A stretch of DNA of 64,000 bases from an uncultured Alphaproteobacteria bacterium. GTDB lineage: Bacteria; Pseudomonadota; Alphaproteobacteria; HIMB59. Positions within the stretch are counted from its first letter, which is position 1. Each line of letters begins with the position of its first letter. Made by a program: the position numbers and the translations under genes. The stretch lies in the NCBI GenBank assembly GCA_902524245.1, contig CABZCN010000001.1, positions 372,001 to 436,000 on the forward strand. Reading direction: 5' to 3'. This document shows, one piece after another, positions 46,388 to 64,000 of the stretch. The notes beneath the pieces were generated by a model. The model was not told where the DNA came from. It worked only from the letters and a program-made list of their open reading frames with translations, and did no database searches.

Positions 46388-46838
46388 ACAAAATTGCGTC
46401 TTGCGTATTTGGAGCGTTTATAGACTTACTCCGATAATAGTTTTTTCTTTCATTGTAGGCTTTATAGCCTAATTTTTCATAAAGTTTAATAGCAAATTTA
46501 TTAATAGCACTCGCTTCCAGAAAGATTTTAAATGATTTTCCAGTACTTTTGAGTTGTTTTTCAAGCTCTTCTAAAATCATTCTTCCCAACCCTTGGTTTC
46601 TAAATTCAGGCAAAACAGCAATATGTAAAATTTCAAATTCACTGACCTTTTGATCTTGATATAAAAAATGTCCTATCAAAGCACCTTTGACGTTAGTTTG
46701 ATCTAGAAGATAAATATTAAAACTTGTTTCTTTATTGAGGTGAAGCTCAATATCTTTTTCACTCCAATTAATCTCTAGTTGGTCTTTATGATTGATAATC
46801 CAATTTTTAGAATCAGATAGAGTATGTGTAAAGTTCAA
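46359..46838 (-). CDS. rimI: GNAT N-acetyltransferase, RimI-like
   Basis: 159 aa GNAT protein. The acetyl-CoA site is LPEFRNQGLGRMILEELE and the RimI-type C-terminal motif is FLEASAINKFAIKLYEKLGYKAYNERKNYY. Family members acetylate the N-terminus of ribosomal protein S18. tsaB, its usual upstream neighbour in alphaproteobacteria, is replaced here by the glycosyltransferase gene, which it overlaps by 4 nt. Confidence 0.82.
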   Translation of the reverse strand: MNFTHTLSDSKNWIINHKDQLEINWSEKDIELHLNKETSFNIYLLDQTNVKGALIGHFLYQDQKVSEFEILHIAVLPEFRNQGLGRMILEELEKQLKSTGKSFKIFLEASAINKFAIKLYEKLGYKAYNERKNYYRSKSINAPNTQDAILFAKSLNAIK

Positions 46839-47827
46839 GCCACAATATTATCATAAAAAACCTTGGAACACTCATACCAGTTAAATTTTTTTGTATATTC
46901 TTGACATTTTTTTCGATCGATAGTCAAACAATTCAAAACATTATCTTTTAAGTTATCACCAATAAAACCGTTGACCCCATTAACAATAATATCTTTAGGA
47001 CCTGTTACATCATAAGCAGCGACTGGTGTGCCGGTTGCATTTGCCTCAGTTACCACATTTCCAAAGGTATCAGTCTTGCTAGGGAAAACCATTACATCTG
47101 AACTAGCATAGTAATTCACTAAATTCTGGCCAAACTGGTAACCAACAAATTTTATATCTGTATATTTTTTTTTTAGTTTATTTAACTGTGGTCCATCGCC
47201 AACGACAACTTTAGTACCTTCTAAATCTAAATCTAAAAAAGCTTGAATATTTTTTTCAGTAGCCACTCGACCGATATAAGAAAATATTGGTCCCGGGCCT
47301 AAGTCTAATTTTTGATAGTTGCCAAATTTTTGATGATCGACACCTCTTGACCAAACAACGGTATTTTTAAAATTCATATTTATTAATTCGGCCTGCATGG
47401 ATGGGGTAGGAACAAGAACTTTTTTCGCTTTATTGTGAAAATGCTTTATGAAGAAGTAAAAGAAACTTGCAGGTATTTTTATACGTTGTTGAATATACTC
47501 AGGGAAACGAGTATGAAATGAAGTTGTAAAAATAATTTTTTCTGAAAGACATATTTTTCTGGCCAAAAAACCTAGGGGCCCCTCTGTAGCAATGTGAATA
47601 TGATCAGGATTGATCTGATCCATCATATTTTTCAATGTTTTTTTGCGAGTAATCACAACTTTAATCTCATTATACGAAGGAAGGCCAAAGCGAACTTTAA
47701 ATAACTCAGGGTGTATTACTTCTACCTGCATACCCATTTTTTCCAATTCCGGTATGGTATTCAGATAAGAACGGACGACGCCGTTTACCTGAGGTTTCCA
47801 TGCATCTGTTACTAATAATAATTTCAA
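46835..47827 (-). CDS. agt: Glycosyltransferase family 4, Agt-like (glycolipid synthesis)
   Basis: GT-B enzyme of 330 aa. N-terminal LLLVTDAWKPQVNGVVRSYLNTIPEL and HIATEGPLGFLARK; C-terminal donor-binding FSYIGRVATEKNIQAFL and PSKTDTFGNVVTEANATGTPVAAYDVTGP. It overlaps the PlcP-like phosphoesterase gene by 4 nt. In marine alphaproteobacteria such pairs (plcP-agt) convert phospholipids via diacylglycerol to glucosyl or glucuronosyl diacylglycerol under phosphate limitation. The sugar and acceptor are inferred from this pairing; a different mannosyl- or glucosyltransferase role is possible. Confidence 0.78.
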   Translation of the reverse strand: MKLLLVTDAWKPQVNGVVRSYLNTIPELEKMGMQVEVIHPELFKVRFGLPSYNEIKVVITRKKTLKNMMDQINPDHIHIATEGPLGFLARKICLSEKIIFTTSFHTRFPEYIQQRIKIPASFFYFFIKHFHNKAKKVLVPTPSMQAELINMNFKNTVVWSRGVDHQKFGNYQKLDLGPGPIFSYIGRVATEKNIQAFLDLDLEGTKVVVGDGPQLNKLKKKYTDIKFVGYQFGQNLVNYYASSDVMVFPSKTDTFGNVVTEANATGTPVAAYDVTGPKDIIVNGVNGFIGDNLKDNVLNCLTIDRKKCQEYTKKFNWYECSKVFYDNIVA

Positions 47828-48612
47828 GCTACAGATACCTTATTAAGAGTTTGTTTTTCTAAAGACTGGATTTTTTTTTCATTCCAAAAGACTAACTCCA
47901 AGTTGCCTTTAAAGTCCTCAACCATTGCACTACAGCTATCTACCCAATCTCCTAGATTATGATATGTCTTGTCACCAATTTTTTTTATTTGGGGATGGTG
48001 AATATGACCACAAACAATTCCATCACAATTATTTTTTTTTATTCTCTCAAGACATGCATTTTCAAAATTTTCAATATATCGTTGAGCATCTTTTACTCGT
48101 GTTTTTAAATATCCTGATAAAGACCAATACGAAAGACCAAGTTTTCTTCGACAGAAATTTAAAATATTATTAAACCAAACAGAGTAGTCATAAAGGACGG
48201 CACCTATCTTTGCTAACCATTTTGAATTTAGAACTATTCCATCAAATTCATGCCCATGCATTAAGAGAAGTCTTTTATTGTTCGCTGTTGTATGAATTCT
48301 ATTTTTTCGAACTTTAATGTTTGCAAATGAAAAACCACAATAATCTGAAAAAACTTCATCATGGTTTCCAGGTATATAATAGACTTTGGTACCTGAGCGT
48401 GCTTTTCGTAAAACTTTTTGTATGAAAGTATTAAAATCAGGATTCCAAAACCAATTTTTTTTTAGACGCCATCCGTCTATAATATCTCCAAGTAAATAAA
48501 GATGATCACAATCATTATATTTTAAAAAGTGTAAGAGCTCCTTTACTTTTGAAGCACGTATGCCAATATGAATGTCTGAAATAAATATAGATCGATGTTT
48601 TTTGATTTGCAT
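47824..48612 (-). CDS. plcP: PlcP-type phospholipase C metallophosphoesterase
   Basis: Calcineurin-fold phosphoesterase of 262 aa, often labelled UDP-2,3-diacylglucosamine diphosphatase-like. Metal ligands: FISDIHIG, LLGDIIDGW, PGNHDEV, MHGHEFD and CGHIHHPQ. The stretch RRKLGLSYWSLSGYLKTRVKDA and the NLGDWVDSCSAMVE ending closely resemble the PlcP group of Sinorhizobium and marine bacteria, which strips head groups from phospholipids during phosphate starvation, releasing diacylglycerol. The agt gene follows with a 4-nt overlap. Upstream lies a 17-nt sequence identical to one in front of pstS. Confidence 0.82.
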   Translation of the reverse strand: MQIKKHRSIFISDIHIGIRASKVKELLHFLKYNDCDHLYLLGDIIDGWRLKKNWFWNPDFNTFIQKVLRKARSGTKVYYIPGNHDEVFSDYCGFSFANIKVRKNRIHTTANNKRLLLMHGHEFDGIVLNSKWLAKIGAVLYDYSVWFNNILNFCRRKLGLSYWSLSGYLKTRVKDAQRYIENFENACLERIKKNNCDGIVCGHIHHPQIKKIGDKTYHNLGDWVDSCSAMVEDFKGNLELVFWNEKKIQSLEKQTLNKVSVA

Positions 48613-48656
48613 AGAATCTAAAAATAGATATATCTACGATTGATAGTATTGAGGAT

Positions 48657-48673
48657 TGTTAAAGTTTTATTAA
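48657..48673 (-). promoter_or_regulatory. Candidate PhoB half-sites upstream of plcP
   Basis: The plus-strand sequence TGTTAAAGTTTTATTAA is identical over 17 nt to 56195-56211 before pstS. Read toward plcP it gives TTAATAA AACT TTAACA, two units with an 11-bp period; the next unit (CAATACT) is degenerate. It abuts the ATG of the divergent SET gene. Confidence 0.5.
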
Positions 48674-49192
48674 ATGGACTCTTCACAAAAGCTTTATATT
48701 AGAAAAAATTCTAAAATTCATGCATCTGGTCTTTTTGCAAAAGCTGATATCAGTGCTGGCACTAGAATCATTGAATATCGCGGGTTAAAGATAACTAAAG
48801 CTCAATCCGACAAGATTGCTGATGTTCACATAGAGGCAAACAAAAGGGCTAAAACAGTCGGGTCTGTTTACATTTTTACACTGAATCAAAAATACGACAT
48901 CAATGGAAAAGTAACATGGAATTTAGCAAAATATATTAATCATTCCTGCGACCCTAATTGTGAAACTGATATCATCAAAGGAAAAATATGGATTAGCGCA
49001 ATTAAAGATATTAAGAAAGGCGAGGAACTGTCCTACGACTATGGATATGACATGTTTTGTTTCGAGGATCACCCGTGTCGATGTGGGTCTCAAAACTGTA
49101 TTGGATATATTGTTCGAAGCAATCTTAGATGGAGAGTTAAAAAAAGGTTAATTGAAAATAAAAAGTCAAGATTTAACAAAAACTTCACATAA
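48674..49192 (+). CDS. SET-domain protein lysine methyltransferase
   Basis: 172 aa with a complete SET domain. N-terminal SKIHASGLFAKADISAGTRIIEYRG; SAM/lysine-channel motif KYINHSCDPNCE; catalytic-Tyr motif KKGEELSYDYGYD; and a post-SET zinc motif HPCRCGSQNCIGYI. The fold transfers methyl groups to protein lysines, best known from histones; the bacterial target is unknown. It is divergent from plcP (61-bp gap) and 17 nt before dgkA, so it sits inside a lipid-turnover locus. A Lys-rich tail (VKKRLIENKKSRFNKNF) might bind nucleic acid. Confidence 0.88.
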   Translation: MDSSQKLYIRKNSKIHASGLFAKADISAGTRIIEYRGLKITKAQSDKIADVHIEANKRAKTVGSVYIFTLNQKYDINGKVTWNLAKYINHSCDPNCETDIIKGKIWISAIKDIKKGEELSYDYGYDMFCFEDHPCRCGSQNCIGYIVRSNLRWRVKKRLIENKKSRFNKNFT

Positions 49193-49209: not shown

Positions 49210-49557
49210 ATGGATTTTAAAAATAAAAATATAGTAGATGCTTTTTGGTGTTCAATTGAAGGCCTAAAAATTCTCCTTCAAGAAAAAGCAGCAAGAAGAG
49301 AGCTATTATTGCTTCCCTTGTCTGCTCTATACATCGTAATTTTTCAACCGGCTCTTTTGTTCATACTTTGGCTGATAATTTTACCTTTGCTCATACTTAG
49401 TATTGAGGCTCTAAACACTGCAATAGAATATACCTGTGATAAAATTACTATGGATAAGTCAAACAAAATAAAGAAAGCTAAAGATTTGGGCTCTGCTGCA
49501 ATTTTTTTATCTCTAACAGCCTATGGAATAGTTTTATTCTTAGGTTTATTTAATTAA
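49210..49557 (+). CDS. dgkA: Diacylglycerol kinase, DgkA type
   Basis: Small trimeric membrane kinase of 115 aa with three membrane helices. Family motifs: AFWCSIEGLKILLQEKAARRELLLLP, SIEALNTAIEYTCDKI and KAKDLGSAAIFLSL. It phosphorylates diacylglycerol to phosphatidate. Near plcP-agt, which make and use diacylglycerol, it could return surplus diacylglycerol to phospholipid synthesis. It is probably co-transcribed with the SET gene. Confidence 0.92.
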   Translation: MDFKNKNIVDAFWCSIEGLKILLQEKAARRELLLLPLSALYIVIFQPALLFILWLIILPLLILSIEALNTAIEYTCDKITMDKSNKIKKAKDLGSAAIFLSLTAYGIVLFLGLFN

Positions 49558-50145: not shown

Positions 50146-50835
50146 TTAATTTTCTGAATCGATAGAGTAGCCAGCGGATCTAACTGTTCGAATGAAATCT
50201 TTTTCTCCTGGTAAATTCAGCTCTTTTCTGAGTCTTCTTATGTGAACATCAACTGTTCTAGGTTCAACGTAAGCGTCATTTAACCAAACATTATCCAATA
50301 GTTGCTGCCTAGAATAGACTCTACCTTTATTTTCAATAAAAAATTTTAAAAGATTAAATTCAGTCGGTCCTAAATTTAATTTTCTCTCACCCCTTGATAC
50401 CCTTCTGTTGGTAAGATTAATGTTAATATCATGAAACTTGAGTGAGTCGTTCTCTTCTCTTGCTTTTGTTCTTTTAAGTAATGATTTAATTCTAGCAAGG
50501 ATCTCACTTGGAAGAAAAGGTTTGGTTACATAATCCTCCACACCTAATTCAAAACCTCTAATTTTATCATCCTCTTGACCTTTAGCTGTTAACATTATAA
50601 TTGGAATTTTTTTTAGATTATCTTTTCTTTTAATTCTCTTTAAAACTTCAATGCCCGATATATTTGGTAGCATCCAATCTAATAAAATTAAATCAGGCAG
50701 CCAATGTTCGATCTCTTGGATTGCAGATTCTCCGTCGTATGAAAATTTTATTTGGTAGTTTTGTTGTTCTAAATGAAATCCAATTAATTCTGAGATTGGT
50801 TTTTCATCCTCTACAACTAAAATCTTGTCTGTCAT
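50146..50835 (-). CDS. phoB: Phosphate regulon response regulator PhoB
   Basis: OmpR-family regulator of 229 aa. Receiver: VVEDEKPI, phospho-Asp in LILLDWMLPNISG, Lys in DYVTKPFLPSE. The C-terminal winged helix has LGPTEFNLLKFFIENKGRVYSRQQLLDNVW and RTVDVHIRRLRKEL. Position and partner genes (phoR, pstSCAB, phoU) make it PhoB. Its ATG overlaps the phoU stop by 1 nt. Confidence 0.95.
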   Translation of the reverse strand: MTDKILVVEDEKPISELIGFHLEQQNYQIKFSYDGESAIQEIEHWLPDLILLDWMLPNISGIEVLKRIKRKDNLKKIPIIMLTAKGQEDDKIRGFELGVEDYVTKPFLPSEILARIKSLLKRTKAREENDSLKFHDININLTNRRVSRGERKLNLGPTEFNLLKFFIENKGRVYSRQQLLDNVWLNDAYVEPRTVDVHIRRLRKELNLPGEKDFIRTVRSAGYSIDSEN

Positions 50836-55046: not shown

Positions 55047-56123
55047 TTACTTACAAAGTCCGCTTGAAAAAGCGTAACCAGCATCTTTTAATGGATGTTT
55101 TTTTTCAGCACATGCTGCAATATCAAATCCCATTGCATCTAAGCTGTCAGTAACGTTTCTTACTCTATTGATAAGGTCTGGTACCATAGGTGCAGCACCA
55201 ATTTTTGTTAGGTAACCGTTATCACCAATTGCTTCATCACTTACCATCATTTGTGCAAACTCCTGAATGCCAGGTACAACCCCGATGTGATCTGCTTTTA
55301 AGTATATGAAAAGAGGTCTTGCCATTGGATACTCATAAGTTGCAATGGATTCAGCAGATGGTACTACTCCCTCAACAGTAGATGGTTGTAATTTATCTCC
55401 GTTGTCTTTTAGATAAGAATAACCAAAGTAACCAAAACGTTCTGGATCCTCAACTAGTTTTTGAACAATAAGAGTGTCATTCTCACCCATCTCGATGATT
55501 TTTCCATCTTCTCTGTAATCAGTACATCCATCGTCACTGCCAGTTACTGCTTCTAATGTACATCCAGCTTCCATTACTTTACCATCAAATGCATCTCTTG
55601 TTCCTGAGGTTGGAGGAGCTACTAATACTTCAATTTTATATGCAGGAAGGCTTGGGTTAATTTCGTTCCAAGTTTGATATGGATTTTCGACCACTTCACC
55701 ATCAACAACAACTTTTGCAGCCATAGCTGTAAAGATTTCTTCTCTTGTTAGAGAAAAAGGTTCTGCTTCGTTGGAGTGAGAAAAAGTAATACCGTCATTA
55801 GCCCACATCACTTCAATTACGTTTGTTACACCGGCTTCAAGACATAATTTAGCTTCTTTAGCTTTCATTGGTCGTGACGCTCCAGTAATATCTGGAAATT
55901 CAACTCCCACACCAGCACAAAATGCTTTCATTCCACCACCAGTTCCAATTGGATTGTAAGTGGGGGTTTTAAAACCTGACTCGCCGAGTCTTTGTGCGTT
56001 TACTGTTCCATATGGGTATACTGTTGATGAGCCAACAATATTAATTTGATCTCTTGCAAAAGTTTCAGCAGAGAAAAGTACGCTTACTGCTAGAGCAAGA
56101 AAAGTTAACATAGATTTTTTCAT
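55047..56123 (-). CDS. pstS: Phosphate-binding periplasmic protein PstS
   Basis: 358 aa. Signal peptide MKKSMLTFLALAVSVLFSAETFA; phosphate-binding loops in INIVGSSTVYPYG and PPTSGTRDAF, with DITGASRPMKAKE between. This is the long PstS type common in marine alphaproteobacteria. An AAGGAAC ribosome site precedes the ATG. It has its own PhoB-type box in the 84-bp gap after phoR, and the hairpin behind it would allow higher expression than the permeases. Confidence 0.95.
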   Translation of the reverse strand: MKKSMLTFLALAVSVLFSAETFARDQINIVGSSTVYPYGTVNAQRLGESGFKTPTYNPIGTGGGMKAFCAGVGVEFPDITGASRPMKAKEAKLCLEAGVTNVIEVMWANDGITFSHSNEAEPFSLTREEIFTAMAAKVVVDGEVVENPYQTWNEINPSLPAYKIEVLVAPPTSGTRDAFDGKVMEAGCTLEAVTGSDDGCTDYREDGKIIEMGENDTLIVQKLVEDPERFGYFGYSYLKDNGDKLQPSTVEGVVPSAESIATYEYPMARPLFIYLKADHIGVVPGIQEFAQMMVSDEAIGDNGYLTKIGAAPMVPDLINRVRNVTDSLDAMGFDIAACAEKKHPLKDAGYAFSSGLCK

Positions 56124-56182: not shown

Positions 56183-56211
56183 ATGTTACAAATATGTTAA
56201 AGTTTTATTAA
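56183..56211 (-). promoter_or_regulatory. Candidate PhoB box upstream of pstS
   Basis: Read toward pstS: TTAATAA AACT TTAACAT ATTT GTAACAT, three 7-mers with an 11-bp period, ending 59 bp before the ATG. Its upstream part overlaps the phoR stop codon (56208-56210). The last two units match the box at 2192, and the first two match the sequence before plcP. Confidence 0.7.
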
Positions 56212-57473
56212 GCATGCTTTGGAATTGTGATTAAAAACTCTGAGCCTTTTCCAACTTCACTTTTTATGTCAATAAAACCCATGTTTTTATTCAAAATATG
56301 TTTCACAATTGAAAGGCCTAATCCAGTACCACCAACCTCTTTGGATCGAGCACTGTCCACTCTGTAAAATCTCTCGGTAAGCCTTGAGATGTGCTCTTCT
56401 GCAATGCCTATGCCATTATCCTTGAAGGAAATTTCGACATATTCAGTCATATTGCTAGTATTCATTTTTTCACGAGCTTTAATTAAAATTTTAGCACCAT
56501 CTTTTGAATATTTAACAGCGTTGTTAACGATATTGACAACCACTTGAATAAATTCTTCATGAGGACATCCAACTAAAAGAGATTGGTCTAAATTAATATC
56601 AACATTTATTTTTTTCTTTAAAATTTTTGACTCCAATGAGTTTATTCCAATTTTAACGGTATTTAATAAATTACAAAATTGGTCATTCTCATTAGTTTTT
56701 TTATTCTCGATGGAACTTAAACTTAATAGATCATCAATCAAAGAGTTCATTCGATTTGACTGATCTTGAATAATTGAAATAAATTTTTTTTTATTTTTTT
56801 CATCGTCAACAGTTAAAAGTGTTTCTAAATATCCTATTATTGAAGAGAGTGGAGTTTTTAATTCGTGACTTACATTAGCTACGAAGTCAGTTCTTACCAT
56901 CTCAAGATTTTTAATTGCAGTAATGTCTTTAAAAGCAACGCAAAAAAAATCGTTAATTGGAAATCCTGTAACGTCGTAATATCGGTCATTTGGTATTAAT
57001 CTGTTCCACTCAAAATTTTTTTTTGATTTAGTTTTAAGTGCGTTACTTAGATTTTCAGACAAAGATAAGTCTCTTAAACCTATTTTAAGGTTATCTGCAT
57101 TTTCTAAATTAAATGTCTCTTTGAAAATATTATTAACGAATATGATATTATAATCGTAATCTATAATAACTATTGAGAGGTCTAAGGAGTTAAGAATGTC
57201 TTGATACTCCAAACTTTGTTTGTCACCAACTTCGATGCGTCTTTCTTTGTCTAAAAGAGTCTCTTCTAAAATATTTCGGACTTTTGTAAATAACATATTG
57301 TCAGATTTTCTTAGGTCAAAAGTTTTTTTTTCAAGATAGCTCTCAAAGAAATAATAAGAAATGAAATAAACTAAACTCTGAGAAATAATTGATATTAAAA
57401 AAATATTAATTGAAGTACTAAAAAACAAAAATAAGTTTAATGAGAGAACAGCAATAGAAAATACAAATAACAT
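56208..57473 (-). CDS. phoR: Phosphate regulon sensor kinase PhoR
   Basis: 421 aa histidine kinase. Two N-terminal membrane helices, a PAS domain (YQDILNSLDLSIVIIDYDYNIIFVN), phospho-His in VANVSHELKTPLSSIIGYLETLL, N box VVNIVNNAVKYS, and G boxes FKDNGIGI and GGTGLGLSIVKHIL. It lies 1 nt after ppk and upstream of pstS, with which it shares the Pho block. Partner of PhoB. Confidence 0.93.
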   Translation of the reverse strand: MLFVFSIAVLSLNLFLFFSTSINIFLISIISQSLVYFISYYFFESYLEKKTFDLRKSDNMLFTKVRNILEETLLDKERRIEVGDKQSLEYQDILNSLDLSIVIIDYDYNIIFVNNIFKETFNLENADNLKIGLRDLSLSENLSNALKTKSKKNFEWNRLIPNDRYYDVTGFPINDFFCVAFKDITAIKNLEMVRTDFVANVSHELKTPLSSIIGYLETLLTVDDEKNKKKFISIIQDQSNRMNSLIDDLLSLSSIENKKTNENDQFCNLLNTVKIGINSLESKILKKKINVDINLDQSLLVGCPHEEFIQVVVNIVNNAVKYSKDGAKILIKAREKMNTSNMTEYVEISFKDNGIGIAEEHISRLTERFYRVDSARSKEVGGTGLGLSIVKHILNKNMGFIDIKSEVGKGSEFLITIPKHA

Positions 57474-60072: not shown

Positions 60073-61533
60073 ATGCAATATAATATGCTTAATAAAAAAG
60101 ATTCTATTGCAGTAATAGATATAGGGTCAAATTCAGTAAGATTGTGTGTATTTAGGGGCAATATGAGAAGCCCTGATGTGCTCTATAATAAAAAATTTTT
60201 TTGTGGGTTAGGTGAATACCTTCCAAAAACAAAATTGATCAGCAAAGAGGCTGAAAAAAAATGTATCAACTCAATAATTTTTTTTAACTCAATAATTGAA
60301 GAAATAAAACCTAACCACTCTGTCGCTTTGTGTACTGCAGCAATTCGAAATGCTTCTAACAAAAAACAAATTACAAATAAGATACAAAAAGTTTTTAAGG
60401 GAAAAGTTTTAACTTTATCTGGAAGACAAGAGGCCTCCTATGCCACACTAGGCGTTCGTTCTGCAATACCTAGGGCCAATGGGACCATTATTGATATGGG
60501 AGGTGGCAGTCTTGAATTAGCACAAATAACACCACATAAAATTAAAAATATATCTTCTTTTCCTTTGGGTATATTAAACTTCACTAAAGAACATAAAGAG
60601 CATAAAAAAATTAACAAAGAAATAAATTCAAAACATAAAAATCAAAAAATCTTCTATTTAATTGGTGGAGCATTTAGGACAATTGCAAGATGTTATATTT
60701 ATTTTAATAAATTGCCCTTTAATGAAATACACAACTTGAGTATCTCTCGGAAAAATTTTTATGAATTAAAATCAGAATTACAAAAAATTGGGATTGACGA
60801 CCTACAAAAAATTCCGAAAATTTCTGTCGACAGAATAAAACATATTCATATTGCAATAGAAGTATTGGACAAGGTGTTAAAATTATCAAACTGCGAGCAG
60901 TTTATTTATCCAAGATACGGGATTAGAGAGGGTTTCATTTACGAAAATCTTCCCAAAAAGCAAAGGCTTTTAGATCCAACTGAAATTTCTTTAGAATTAA
61001 TAGCTAAAAGTAGATGTCGTTTTTTAATATTTAATAAAAAGACTTTTGCTTGGATTAAAAATGTTTATTTAAAATTTATAAATTTAAAAATGTCCCCTAA
61101 CCAACTGAGAGTAATAAAACTCTCATGCATTATTTCAGATTTGGGATGGGAGCAAACAGCCAAAATTAGAGCTTCTTATGCATTCAACCTAATATTAAAT
61201 AGTCCTCTAGTAGGAATAGAACAATCAGAAAAAGTATTTATTGCATATTTAGTGTATTTAAGGCACACGAAAAATATCTTAGACCAAAGGGTTATTGAAA
61301 AAGAATTAAGTACCTATTTATCTTATTTATCAAGTGACGAAAAAAAGTTAGCTTATCAGATTGGGTGTGTATTAAATTTTTTATACTCTATAACTAAGGG
61401 TTCTTCTTTTTTATTAAAACAGCTTGATCTTAAATCTTTAACATTGGCAGAGCAAAAAAAGGTTTCGTCTATTCAAAAAGTACCAAAATCAGGCAAAACT
61501 GAACAGCTTTATAACCTAATTAGAAAATTTTAA
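60073..61533 (+). CDS. ppx: Exopolyphosphatase, Ppx/GppA family
   Basis: 486 aa. N-terminal phosphate-binding IAVIDIGSNSVRLCVF; second site GTIIDMGGGSLELAQI; YPRYGIREGFIYE ends the catalytic part, and a helical C-terminal domain of about 170 aa follows, as in longer alphaproteobacterial members. It degrades polyphosphate or pppGpp. Either ATG at 60073 or 60085 could be the start. Divergent from sixA-ppk, which makes the opposite reaction. Confidence 0.9.
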   Translation: MQYNMLNKKDSIAVIDIGSNSVRLCVFRGNMRSPDVLYNKKFFCGLGEYLPKTKLISKEAEKKCINSIIFFNSIIEEIKPNHSVALCTAAIRNASNKKQITNKIQKVFKGKVLTLSGRQEASYATLGVRSAIPRANGTIIDMGGGSLELAQITPHKIKNISSFPLGILNFTKEHKEHKKINKEINSKHKNQKIFYLIGGAFRTIARCYIYFNKLPFNEIHNLSISRKNFYELKSELQKIGIDDLQKIPKISVDRIKHIHIAIEVLDKVLKLSNCEQFIYPRYGIREGFIYENLPKKQRLLDPTEISLELIAKSRCRFLIFNKKTFAWIKNVYLKFINLKMSPNQLRVIKLSCIISDLGWEQTAKIRASYAFNLILNSPLVGIEQSEKVFIAYLVYLRHTKNILDQRVIEKELSTYLSYLSSDEKKLAYQIGCVLNFLYSITKGSSFLLKQLDLKSLTLAEQKKVSSIQKVPKSGKTEQLYNLIRKF

Positions 61534-61609: not shown

Positions 61610-63169
61610 ATGAAATTATTATTATCAATGCTTTTAAGCTTTGTTTTTTTCAATGTAAATGCATTGGAACTTAATAAAATCTCAGGCTATTCAACTTTTT
61701 CATGGGACGAAGGTGGATCAGAAATTTTAGCTTACGACTCTCAAAGAAACAGAATATTTGTAACAAACAATCTAACAAAATCTATAGATGTTTTAGATAT
61801 TACAAGATTACCATATACAGAAAAATTAATTTCAATCAAACCAAGAGCAGGTGTTGGTGGAATAAACAGTGTTGCTGTTTCAGAACAAGCAGGTTTGCTT
61901 GCTTTAGCAATCGAGGCAGAAGACAAACAAGACAATGGTGCTGTTTTGTTCTATAATCTTAATACATTAAAATTGGCTTTTGGGTACTCAGTAGGTGCGC
62001 TGCCTGATAATGTTGTATTTACTCCGGATGGGAAATATGCATTGGTCGCCAATGAGGGTGAGCCAAATGATGACTACACTGTTGATCCCAAAGGATCTGT
62101 TTCAATTATTGATTTAAACAAATGGTTTGTTGGCCCTAGTGAAGATAAAATCAGAAATATAAACTTTTATTACAATGGGGCTCCAGAGGGTGGCAGAATT
62201 GTAAAACCTGGATCATCTTTTTTGTATGATGCTGAACCAGAGTTTATAGCAGTTAGCGGTGACTCTAAAAGAGCTTATGTAGCTCTTCAAGAAAATAACG
62301 TTATTGCAAAGATAGATATTAGTTTGGGCATAGTTACTGATTACTTTGGTTTAGGCTATAAAGATTGGTCTCAGTCCGCTCTTGATGCTTCGAATAAGGA
62401 TAACAGAGTTAATATACAGCCTTGGCCGGTTAAAGGAATGTATCAACCAGACACCATGGTAGTTGTCAGTAAAGAGATTAATGGTGAAATGTATGATTAT
62501 GTTTTAATGGCTAATGAGGGAGATGCAAAAGATTACGATGGATTCTCAGAAGAGGTAAGGGTCGCTGATTTAACTTTAGACCCTTCAGTCTTTCCTAATG
62601 CCTCAGAGCTACAAAAAAAATCAAATCTCGGTAGGTTAAAAACAACTACTACTATGGGAGATGCTGATGGTGACGGTTTTTATGAAGAAATCTATACCTA
62701 CGGCGGAAGATCTTTTTCAATTTTAGACGGTAATACCGGACAAATTATTTATGATAGCGGTAATGATATTGCTGTTAGAACAGCGTTTTCAGGTTTTTTT
62801 AACTGGAATGAGGATGCGGGATCTTTTGATGACAGAAGTGACGATAAAGGTGCAGAGCCAGAGGCTCTTACAGTTGGAGAAATTGATGGAAGAACAATAG
62901 CTTTTGTAGGTCTTGAAAGACAGGGCGGTATCATGATGTACGATATTACTGGTATGGTAAAACCAAAATTTCTTGGATATTTTAATGGTAGAAACTTTTT
63001 TGGAGATGGTACAAAACAAACTGGTGGTGACATATCTCCTGAATCATTAGTTTTTATACCTGCCGACAAGACACCTCCACTTTATCATGTCAGAAAAGGA
63101 ACTCCTTTATTGATTGGAGCCTATGAACTTTCGGGTTCAACTGCTATTTACGAAGTTATAATTGATTAG
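61610..63169 (+). CDS. Secreted choice-of-anchor I family protein
   Basis: About 519 aa. Signal peptide MKLLLSMLLSFVFFNVNA, then a beta-propeller-like body: NKSGYSTFSWDEGG-type opening, VFTPDGKYALVANEGEPNDDYTVDPKGSVSIIDL, MANEGDAKDYDGFSEEVRVADL, and GAEPEALTVGEIDGRTIAFVGLER. This pattern belongs to the choice-of-anchor I group, some members of which are annotated as alkaline phosphatases; activity is unproven. No C-terminal anchor is visible. The ATG at 61610 with GGAG upstream is preferred over the TTG at 61589. It lies behind ppx, but no clear PhoB box is seen in front. Confidence 0.78.
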   Translation: MKLLLSMLLSFVFFNVNALELNKISGYSTFSWDEGGSEILAYDSQRNRIFVTNNLTKSIDVLDITRLPYTEKLISIKPRAGVGGINSVAVSEQAGLLALAIEAEDKQDNGAVLFYNLNTLKLAFGYSVGALPDNVVFTPDGKYALVANEGEPNDDYTVDPKGSVSIIDLNKWFVGPSEDKIRNINFYYNGAPEGGRIVKPGSSFLYDAEPEFIAVSGDSKRAYVALQENNVIAKIDISLGIVTDYFGLGYKDWSQSALDASNKDNRVNIQPWPVKGMYQPDTMVVVSKEINGEMYDYVLMANEGDAKDYDGFSEEVRVADLTLDPSVFPNASELQKKSNLGRLKTTTTMGDADGDGFYEEIYTYGGRSFSILDGNTGQIIYDSGNDIAVRTAFSGFFNWNEDAGSFDDRSDDKGAEPEALTVGEIDGRTIAFVGLERQGGIMMYDITGMVKPKFLGYFNGRNFFGDGTKQTGGDISPESLVFIPADKTPPLYHVRKGTPLLIGAYELSGSTAIYEVIID

Positions 63170-63207: not shown

Positions 63208-64000
63208 TTAGATTAAATAGCTTTTTCTAAACTTGTCATTAATAAGTGCAATAGCTTTTTTTCCATCCTCAAGTGAAATCTTATCTGGCGGACCCCAAGC
63301 AGTTTTATTGACATCAACAATGTAAATTTTTTTCGTATCCCTATCTCTTAAAATGTCTAACTCCCCAAAATCTAGTTTAAATTTTTTACAAAATTCATTT
63401 ATTAAACTAATCTCTTCATTTTCAAATAAAGAACAAATTGAGACTATTTTTGAATAAACAGTTTTAGATTTAAAGCGATATTCTTTTTGAGCAAATTTCA
63501 CGTAAGCTAATACAATTTCATCTTTAACCCATACGACCCTATAATCGATAGCAAATTCGTTATAAATATTATTAATTAATTTTTGGTAAACCTTATTTTT
63601 ATAAATTTTAAATCCTAACGAAGAACTATTTATAATCTTCCCGTCATGTTTTGCATTTTGCTCTGATTTTTCTAAAATTGAACCATGAAAGTTTTTTGGA
63701 TCTAAGCTCAGAGAATAACCAAAAATCTCTAAGAAAACTTTATCAACATTAGATTTACTGATGTCAGTGCAATTTTTATTTATTACTATTTTTTTTGGAT
63801 TTCCAGAGACTTGGTAGTTACTATTAGTTTTGTCATAAAAATATAATTCTATGTCAGCTAGTTCTGGGGAGGACGTAAACCTAACTGGCAAGCCCCATCT
63901 AACTTTAGCTAAAGTATAAAGTGGATTCAAAGGCCTTCTAGGGTAACAGATTATTTTTTTTTTATTTGATGAGGTAGATTCATATAAGCTAATCAAAAAA
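63208..64000 (-). CDS. ATP-grasp-like protein, possibly partial at window edge
   Basis: At least 262 aa. Not firmly recognised, but the C-terminal FGELDILRDRDTKKIYIVDVNKTAWGPPD has the acidic and Asn residues of an ATP-grasp metal site, and the middle (DYRVVWVKDEIVLAYVKFA) fits the preceding strands. The N-terminal CYPRRPLNPLYTLAKVRWGLPVRF is distinctive. The frame is open to the window edge and the track start is a TTG, so the true start may lie outside. It converges on the choice-of-anchor gene with a 38-bp gap. The substrate is unknown; a ligase adding an amino acid or sugar-like unit is one possibility. Confidence 0.6.
   Translation of the reverse strand, partial: FLISLYESTSSNKKKIICYPRRPLNPLYTLAKVRWGLPVRFTSSPELADIELYFYDKTNSNYQVSGNPKKIVINKNCTDISKSNVDKVFLEIFGYSLSLDPKNFHGSILEKSEQNAKHDGKIINSSSLGFKIYKNKVYQKLINNIYNEFAIDYRVVWVKDEIVLAYVKFAQKEYRFKSKTVYSKIVSICSLFENEEISLINEFCKKFKLDFGELDILRDRDTKKIYIVDVNKTAWGPPDKISLEDGKKAIALINDKFRKSYLI

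Follow-up and report, generated by a model that had tools for sequence, protein, structure and literature searches.

A predicted, lineage-specific Pho box shared by plcP-agt and the pst operon in a phosphate island of the HIMB59 clade

The Pho box of E. coli consists of direct repeats of 7 + 4 bases at an 11-bp pitch and is found before pst, phn and ugp-type genes (PMC3465305, PMC4415409). Its consensus is CTGTCAT-AWAW-CTGTMAY (PMC3465305), and a review of Pho regulation notes that the motif differs among species (PMC4415409). In SAR11 and other marine bacteria, PlcP and Agt remodel lipids under P starvation; plcP has been found to be induced by P starvation in other marine bacteria, with putative Pho boxes upstream (PMC4796936). 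In the HIMB59 clade, flexible phosphate islands have been described in versions A-H under the name fGIp, in a paper whose main text mentions neither Pho boxes nor plcP and in which the glycosyltransferase was classed as having no direct P function (PMC10734472).

The island analysed here is contained in the window, which is the whole 64,000-nt stretch of DNA under analysis. It has the same components as the described fGIp islands, namely pst, PhoRB, ppk, SixA, Ppx, SET, DGK, 'LpxH' (plcP) and 'RfaG' (agt) (PMC10734472). It also shares with the plcP-agt clusters of SAR11 and marine heterotrophs the order plcP then agt, a phosphate-linked context and a predicted Pho box upstream (PMC4796936), but differs from them in belonging to the HIMB59 clade, in lying within a pst/phoBR island and divergent from a SET gene, and in that the boxes of plcP and pstS share their core sequence. 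The features on which the following analysis draws are these:

46835..47827, minus strand: agt candidate, a GT4 glycosyltransferase gene overlapping plcP (PF13439/PF00534)
47824..48612, minus strand: plcP candidate, a calcineurin-like phosphoesterase gene (PF00149), named LpxH in PMC10734472
48643..48648, minus strand: putative -10 hexamer TACTAT of plcP, read from the sequence, 9 bp after the second half-site
48656..48677, minus strand: predicted Pho box of plcP-agt, TTTAATA-AAAC-TTTAACA, containing the 17-mer at 48657-48673, 44 bp upstream of the plcP ATG
48674..49192, plus strand: SET-domain gene (PF00856), divergent from plcP and not the owner of the box
50146..50835, minus strand: phoB, the last gene of the pst operon (TIGR02154, 309.6 bits against a cut-off of 296.2)
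55047..56123, minus strand: pstS (PF12849, TIGR02136)
56183..56215, minus strand: predicted Pho box of pstSCAB-phoU-phoB, with the three half-sites TTAATAA-AACT-TTAACAT-ATTT-GTAACAT, containing the 17-mer at 56195-56211 and overlapping the phoR stop
56208..57473, minus strand: phoR (TIGR02966, E 6e-88, just under the cut-off)
63208..64000, minus strand: P0001, an uncharacterised gene that the end of the window truncates and that the third exact copy precedes (L001:5208-6062)

The plcP product scored far below the cut-offs of the LpxH model, and the plcP-agt pair recurs in 24 of the 26 loci sampled across the class. The gene therefore encodes a calcineurin-like phosphoesterase that is distinct from LpxH and stands beside agt/lipid-synthesis genes, as is characteristic of PlcP. 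The enzymatic roles ascribed to the two products, including that of PlcP as a phospholipase C yielding diacylglycerol, are predicted from the named homologues (PMC4796936). A diacylglycerol kinase gene (window 49210-49557) lies beside the plcP block, and its product could recycle the diacylglycerol released by PlcP. As for the regulator, the DNA-binding domain of PhoB was aligned to that of E. coli PhoB (1gxp/1qqi); the RTVDVHIRRLRK segment is identical and the recognition helix is the same, which, together with the TIGR02154 match, indicates that the genome encodes a PhoB with a matching recognition helix. In this genome, phoB comes after phoU in the pst operon, unlike in the sister family, where 11-bp repeats, TTGTAATAGAATTGTAACAAAAATTTAATAG, precede phoB itself (L191:16665-16780, L192:12675-12795, L193:14545-14655).

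The preliminary description, made from the sequence of the window, drew attention to a 17-mer shared by the upstream regions of plcP and pstS. This sequence, TGTTAAAGTTTTATTAA on the plus strand (TTAATAAAACTTTAACA in the direction in which plcP and pstS are transcribed), indeed occurs exactly at 48657-48673 and 56195-56211, and both copies lie, as was claimed, on the promoter side of the minus-strand genes, 44 bp from the start of plcP (48612) and 71 bp from that of pstS (56123). The coordinates also agree with what was said of their surroundings, in that the SET ATG at 48674 directly follows the first copy and the phoR stop codon (56208-56210) falls within the second. The two-copy picture was incomplete: a search of the whole genome (1.37 Mb, 94.6% complete) revealed one more exact copy 96 bp outside the window, at C1:436096-436112. 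All three exact copies are in one orientation, within 15.5 kb of phosphate island, and each is located just upstream of a minus-strand gene. There are no copies with one mismatch in the whole genome. Seven copies with two mismatches were found, but these were dropped as additional operators because each is either intragenic or in a gap that lacks promoter-like context. The exact sharing of 17 nt, although real, is not significant by itself: the window contains 7 repeated 17-mers, Markov shuffles average 3.9-6.5, and AT-rich shuffles thus yield similar numbers. An exact 17-base repeat alone is unsurprising in an AT-rich window; what counts is where the copies lie, how many there are and how well they are conserved.

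In the sense of the minus-strand genes, the 17-mer resolves into two half-sites at an 11-bp pitch, TTAATAA-AACT-TTAACA(T), and the pstS box contains the third unit ATTT-GTAACAT in addition. The boxes thus consist of at least two direct repeats at an 11-bp pitch, with 7 conserved and 4 looser bases, and direct repeats at this pitch define a Pho box (PMC4415409). At plcP, a -10-like hexamer is present 9-10 bp after the second unit in every lineage seen, and the relatives with the most diverged plcP leaders have TATAAT, TATACT or TATTAT at this distance. A distance of 9-10 bp between box and -10 is the spacing found in E. coli PhoB-activated promoters, such as that of phoA. The -10 is less clear at pstS and P0001 than at plcP. 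The locus resembles the E. coli system in the pitch of the repeats, in the -10-like hexamer about 10 bp downstream at plcP and in the recognition helix of PhoB, but the half-sites have drifted to TTNATAA and TTAACAT, whereas relatives retain TTGTCAT in the first unit. Only about 7-8 of the 14 positions of the E. coli CTGTCAT consensus are matched in this genome, and a scan with the canonical consensus did not pick the site in this genome.

A motif search upstream of plcP and pstS in relatives, proposed in the preliminary description, recovered the box and found it conserved against diverged leaders; conservation among relatives, on which the reading had been made to depend, is thus observed. 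The related records in the public genome collection comprise alphaproteobacterium HIMB59 MED-G104 and many single-cell or metagenome alphaproteobacteria. Among relatives with 87-95% identical PlcP, 17 of the 18 box columns upstream of plcP are invariant, compared with 9 of the 44 in the rest of the leader; at pstS, the corresponding numbers are 12 of 18 in the box and 14 of 74 elsewhere in the leader. The relatives' sequence over the pstS box is TTGTCATAAAACTTTAACATTTCTTTAAYAT. In relatives from the HIMB59 clade, the corresponding pstS position is occupied by TTGTCATAAAACTTTAACAT, a sequence near the E. coli Pho box, and the divergent pstS boxes read either TTGTCATAAAACTTTAACAT or CTGTCATAAAACTTTAACAT. 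The P0001 box is kept as TTAATAAATATTTAACAC in orthologues of 66-67% identity. Because the pstS boxes of relatives are close to the E. coli consensus, the form of the box in this genome looks like a drifted, lineage-specific, AT-rich Pho box. In the sister family, no clear box was found at plcP. When plcP upstream regions from across the class were scanned with the canonical consensus, about 7 of the 26 gave a shuffle p of <=0.03; therefore, Pho control of plcP across the class is either patchy or not detected.

Profile searches singled out the same sites. With a first profile built from 15 boxes, pstS (24.1 bits), plcP (23.6) and P0001 (20.2) were on top in the whole genome, and the next site scored 14.7; the PWM score of the plcP box is 24.7. 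A second, leave-out profile, built from divergent relatives only and containing no sequences from this genome, again ranked these three sites first in the 1.37 Mb (18.3, 17.1 and 16.8 bits, followed by 14.3), the plcP box being first with 18.3 bits and the pstS box third. The first profile was also run over 52 family genomes, where, within the genus, it detected the box ahead of three further genes, none of whose boxes had been used in building it: phnS2 (its TIGR03261 match exceeds the cut-off), a second pstS, and a UgpB-like gene whose match (E 4e-76) falls short of the curated cut-off. Each of these boxes is correctly oriented and some 40-110 bp from its gene. The uptake of phosphonates and of glycerol phosphate belongs to the classical Pho functions. 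In these searches, the box accordingly stands, in gene sense, upstream of phosphate-starvation genes: pstS, plcP, phnS2, the UgpB-like gene and the second pstS. The weaker hits of the 52-genome search are inside unrelated genes and were taken as noise.

We interpret the 17-mer as the core of a derived PhoB operator (Pho box) that would co-control plcP-agt lipid remodelling and pst phosphate uptake, and give this reading a probability of roughly 0.92. From the shared box, plcP and pstS are probably switched on together when phosphate runs out. Such common PhoB control had been proposed in the preliminary description, and it gains support from footprinting (box columns against leaders), profile ranking, the association with phosphate genes, the presence/absence comparison given below, and the promoter and protein checks. 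In the proposed mechanism, PhoR would phosphorylate PhoB under phosphate limitation, PhoB~P would bind head-to-tail on the 11-bp repeats TTNATAA-N4-TTAACAT, and the bound protein would recruit RNA polymerase to the minus-strand promoters. Its targets would be a predicted plcP-agt operon, for phospholipid head-group removal and glycolipid synthesis, a predicted pstSCAB-phoU-phoB operon, for phosphate uptake and autoregulation, and, as a third, the uncharacterised island gene beside glnD. The idea of PhoB control of plcP is not new, having been published for other marine bacteria; the present analysis adds the predicted operators in the HIMB59 clade, the drift in their sequence and a third target. 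The prediction links PhoB to two genes of the HIMB59 phosphate island, 'LpxH' and 'RfaG', and suggests that these ocean bacteria, too, may replace phospholipids with glycolipids under phosphate scarcity. It also provides a lineage-specific Pho-box profile for boxes that would escape a search based on the E. coli consensus.

Since the copies are three direct repeats at gene-block borders of an island of variable content (PMC10734472), they might instead be recombination or cassette-exchange sites, kept identical by gene shuffling and not by PhoB. We consider this very unlikely, because the box is also present at other loci, before phnS2 and the UgpB-like gene, holds its orientation and its distance to gene starts (and to the -10 at plcP), and varies as a degenerate 11-bp repeat with no fixed recombination core. 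Another reading is that a different response regulator of the OmpR/PhoB family binds the box. Several members of this family use tandem repeats, and the box departs from the E. coli consensus; however, the targets are those of the classical phosphate regulon, phoB is in the same operon, and the intermediate sequences in relatives are near-canonical Pho boxes, which together make a regulator other than PhoB highly improbable.

Two of the copies touch an ATG, those of SET and glnD, and the element could on this ground be a start-proximal signal of these plus-strand genes and not of plcP and P0001. The pstS copy, however, has no adjoining plus-strand gene start, and the comparison of gene arrangements speaks against such a signal. 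Wherever plcP accompanies the SET gene in the relatives compared, the box is present, whereas no box was found at the SET start in genomes with SET but without plcP (G012, G013, G015, G020, G024, G033, G060 and G062). Similarly, there is no box in G060, where glnD is divergent from a DUF47-pit pair, or before pstS in G012 and G020, where the pst operon lies beside glnD and the searches, at the thresholds applied, detected neither phoB nor phoR; the downstream leader of these two genomes matches that of the box-bearing G010. G012 and G020, on which this PhoBR-absence comparison rests, probably represent one lineage. In G002 and G019, whose assemblies are 54-65% complete, the phnS2 box is present though phoB was not found. 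Because the box is absent at SET genes without plcP and at glnD beside non-box loci, we conclude from these arrangements that it tracks PhoB-type target genes rather than plus-strand neighbours. A SET or glnD element was therefore rejected as extremely unlikely. Finally, the idea that AT-rich DNA repeats 17-mers anyway, as the shuffle counts illustrate, and that two fell upstream of phosphate genes by accident has a negligible probability in view of the third exact copy within the same island, the conservation of the box against diverged flanks and the placing of all three sites on top by the leave-out profile.

The third copy lies 33 bp upstream of P0001, a gene of 284 codons that was found only in part of the genus. 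P0001 has no Pfam, NCBIfam or convincing PDB match, its AlphaFold model is poor (mean pLDDT 41.5), and a resemblance to ATP-grasp, judged by eye, is a hunch. The present analysis flags it as an uncharacterised probable PhoB target. The last base of the third copy is the A of the glnD ATG, and the box (L001:6096-6114) overlaps the glnD start codon. It is conceivable, though rather unlikely, that this box brings P0001 into the Pho regulon and also, by covering the start codon of glnD, allows PhoB~P to repress this uridylyltransferase gene, and so couples phosphate starvation to nitrogen control. If this is true, one island-borne operator would join phosphate starvation and nitrogen signalling. 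In G013, a box-like site (L180:13817-13838) is also present over the glnD start, beside an aquaporin-like gene. The boxes at glnD starts possibly reflect a phosphate-nitrogen link, or mere neighbourhood.

Several further sites and arrangements were observed. In G010, pstC is shortened and joined to trpS (L177:9710-10834), which is probably a single-cell assembly chimera or a deletion. Two relatives have box-like sites within sixA, some 300 bp ahead of ppk (L186:13094-13115 and L190:6364-6385); these may be a coding coincidence. In G013 and G015, an LMWPc/arsenate-reductase-like gene is flipped away from phoB and has its own box-like site (L180:5295-5316 and L181:8475-8496), which overlaps the SET stop codon. 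A weak box-like site is also present on the plus strand of the window at 61423-61444 (profile E 0.3, 13.2 PWM bits). It is followed, after about 165-190 bp, by a choice-of-anchor I gene at 61610 that may be the island alkaline phosphatase of PMC10734472.
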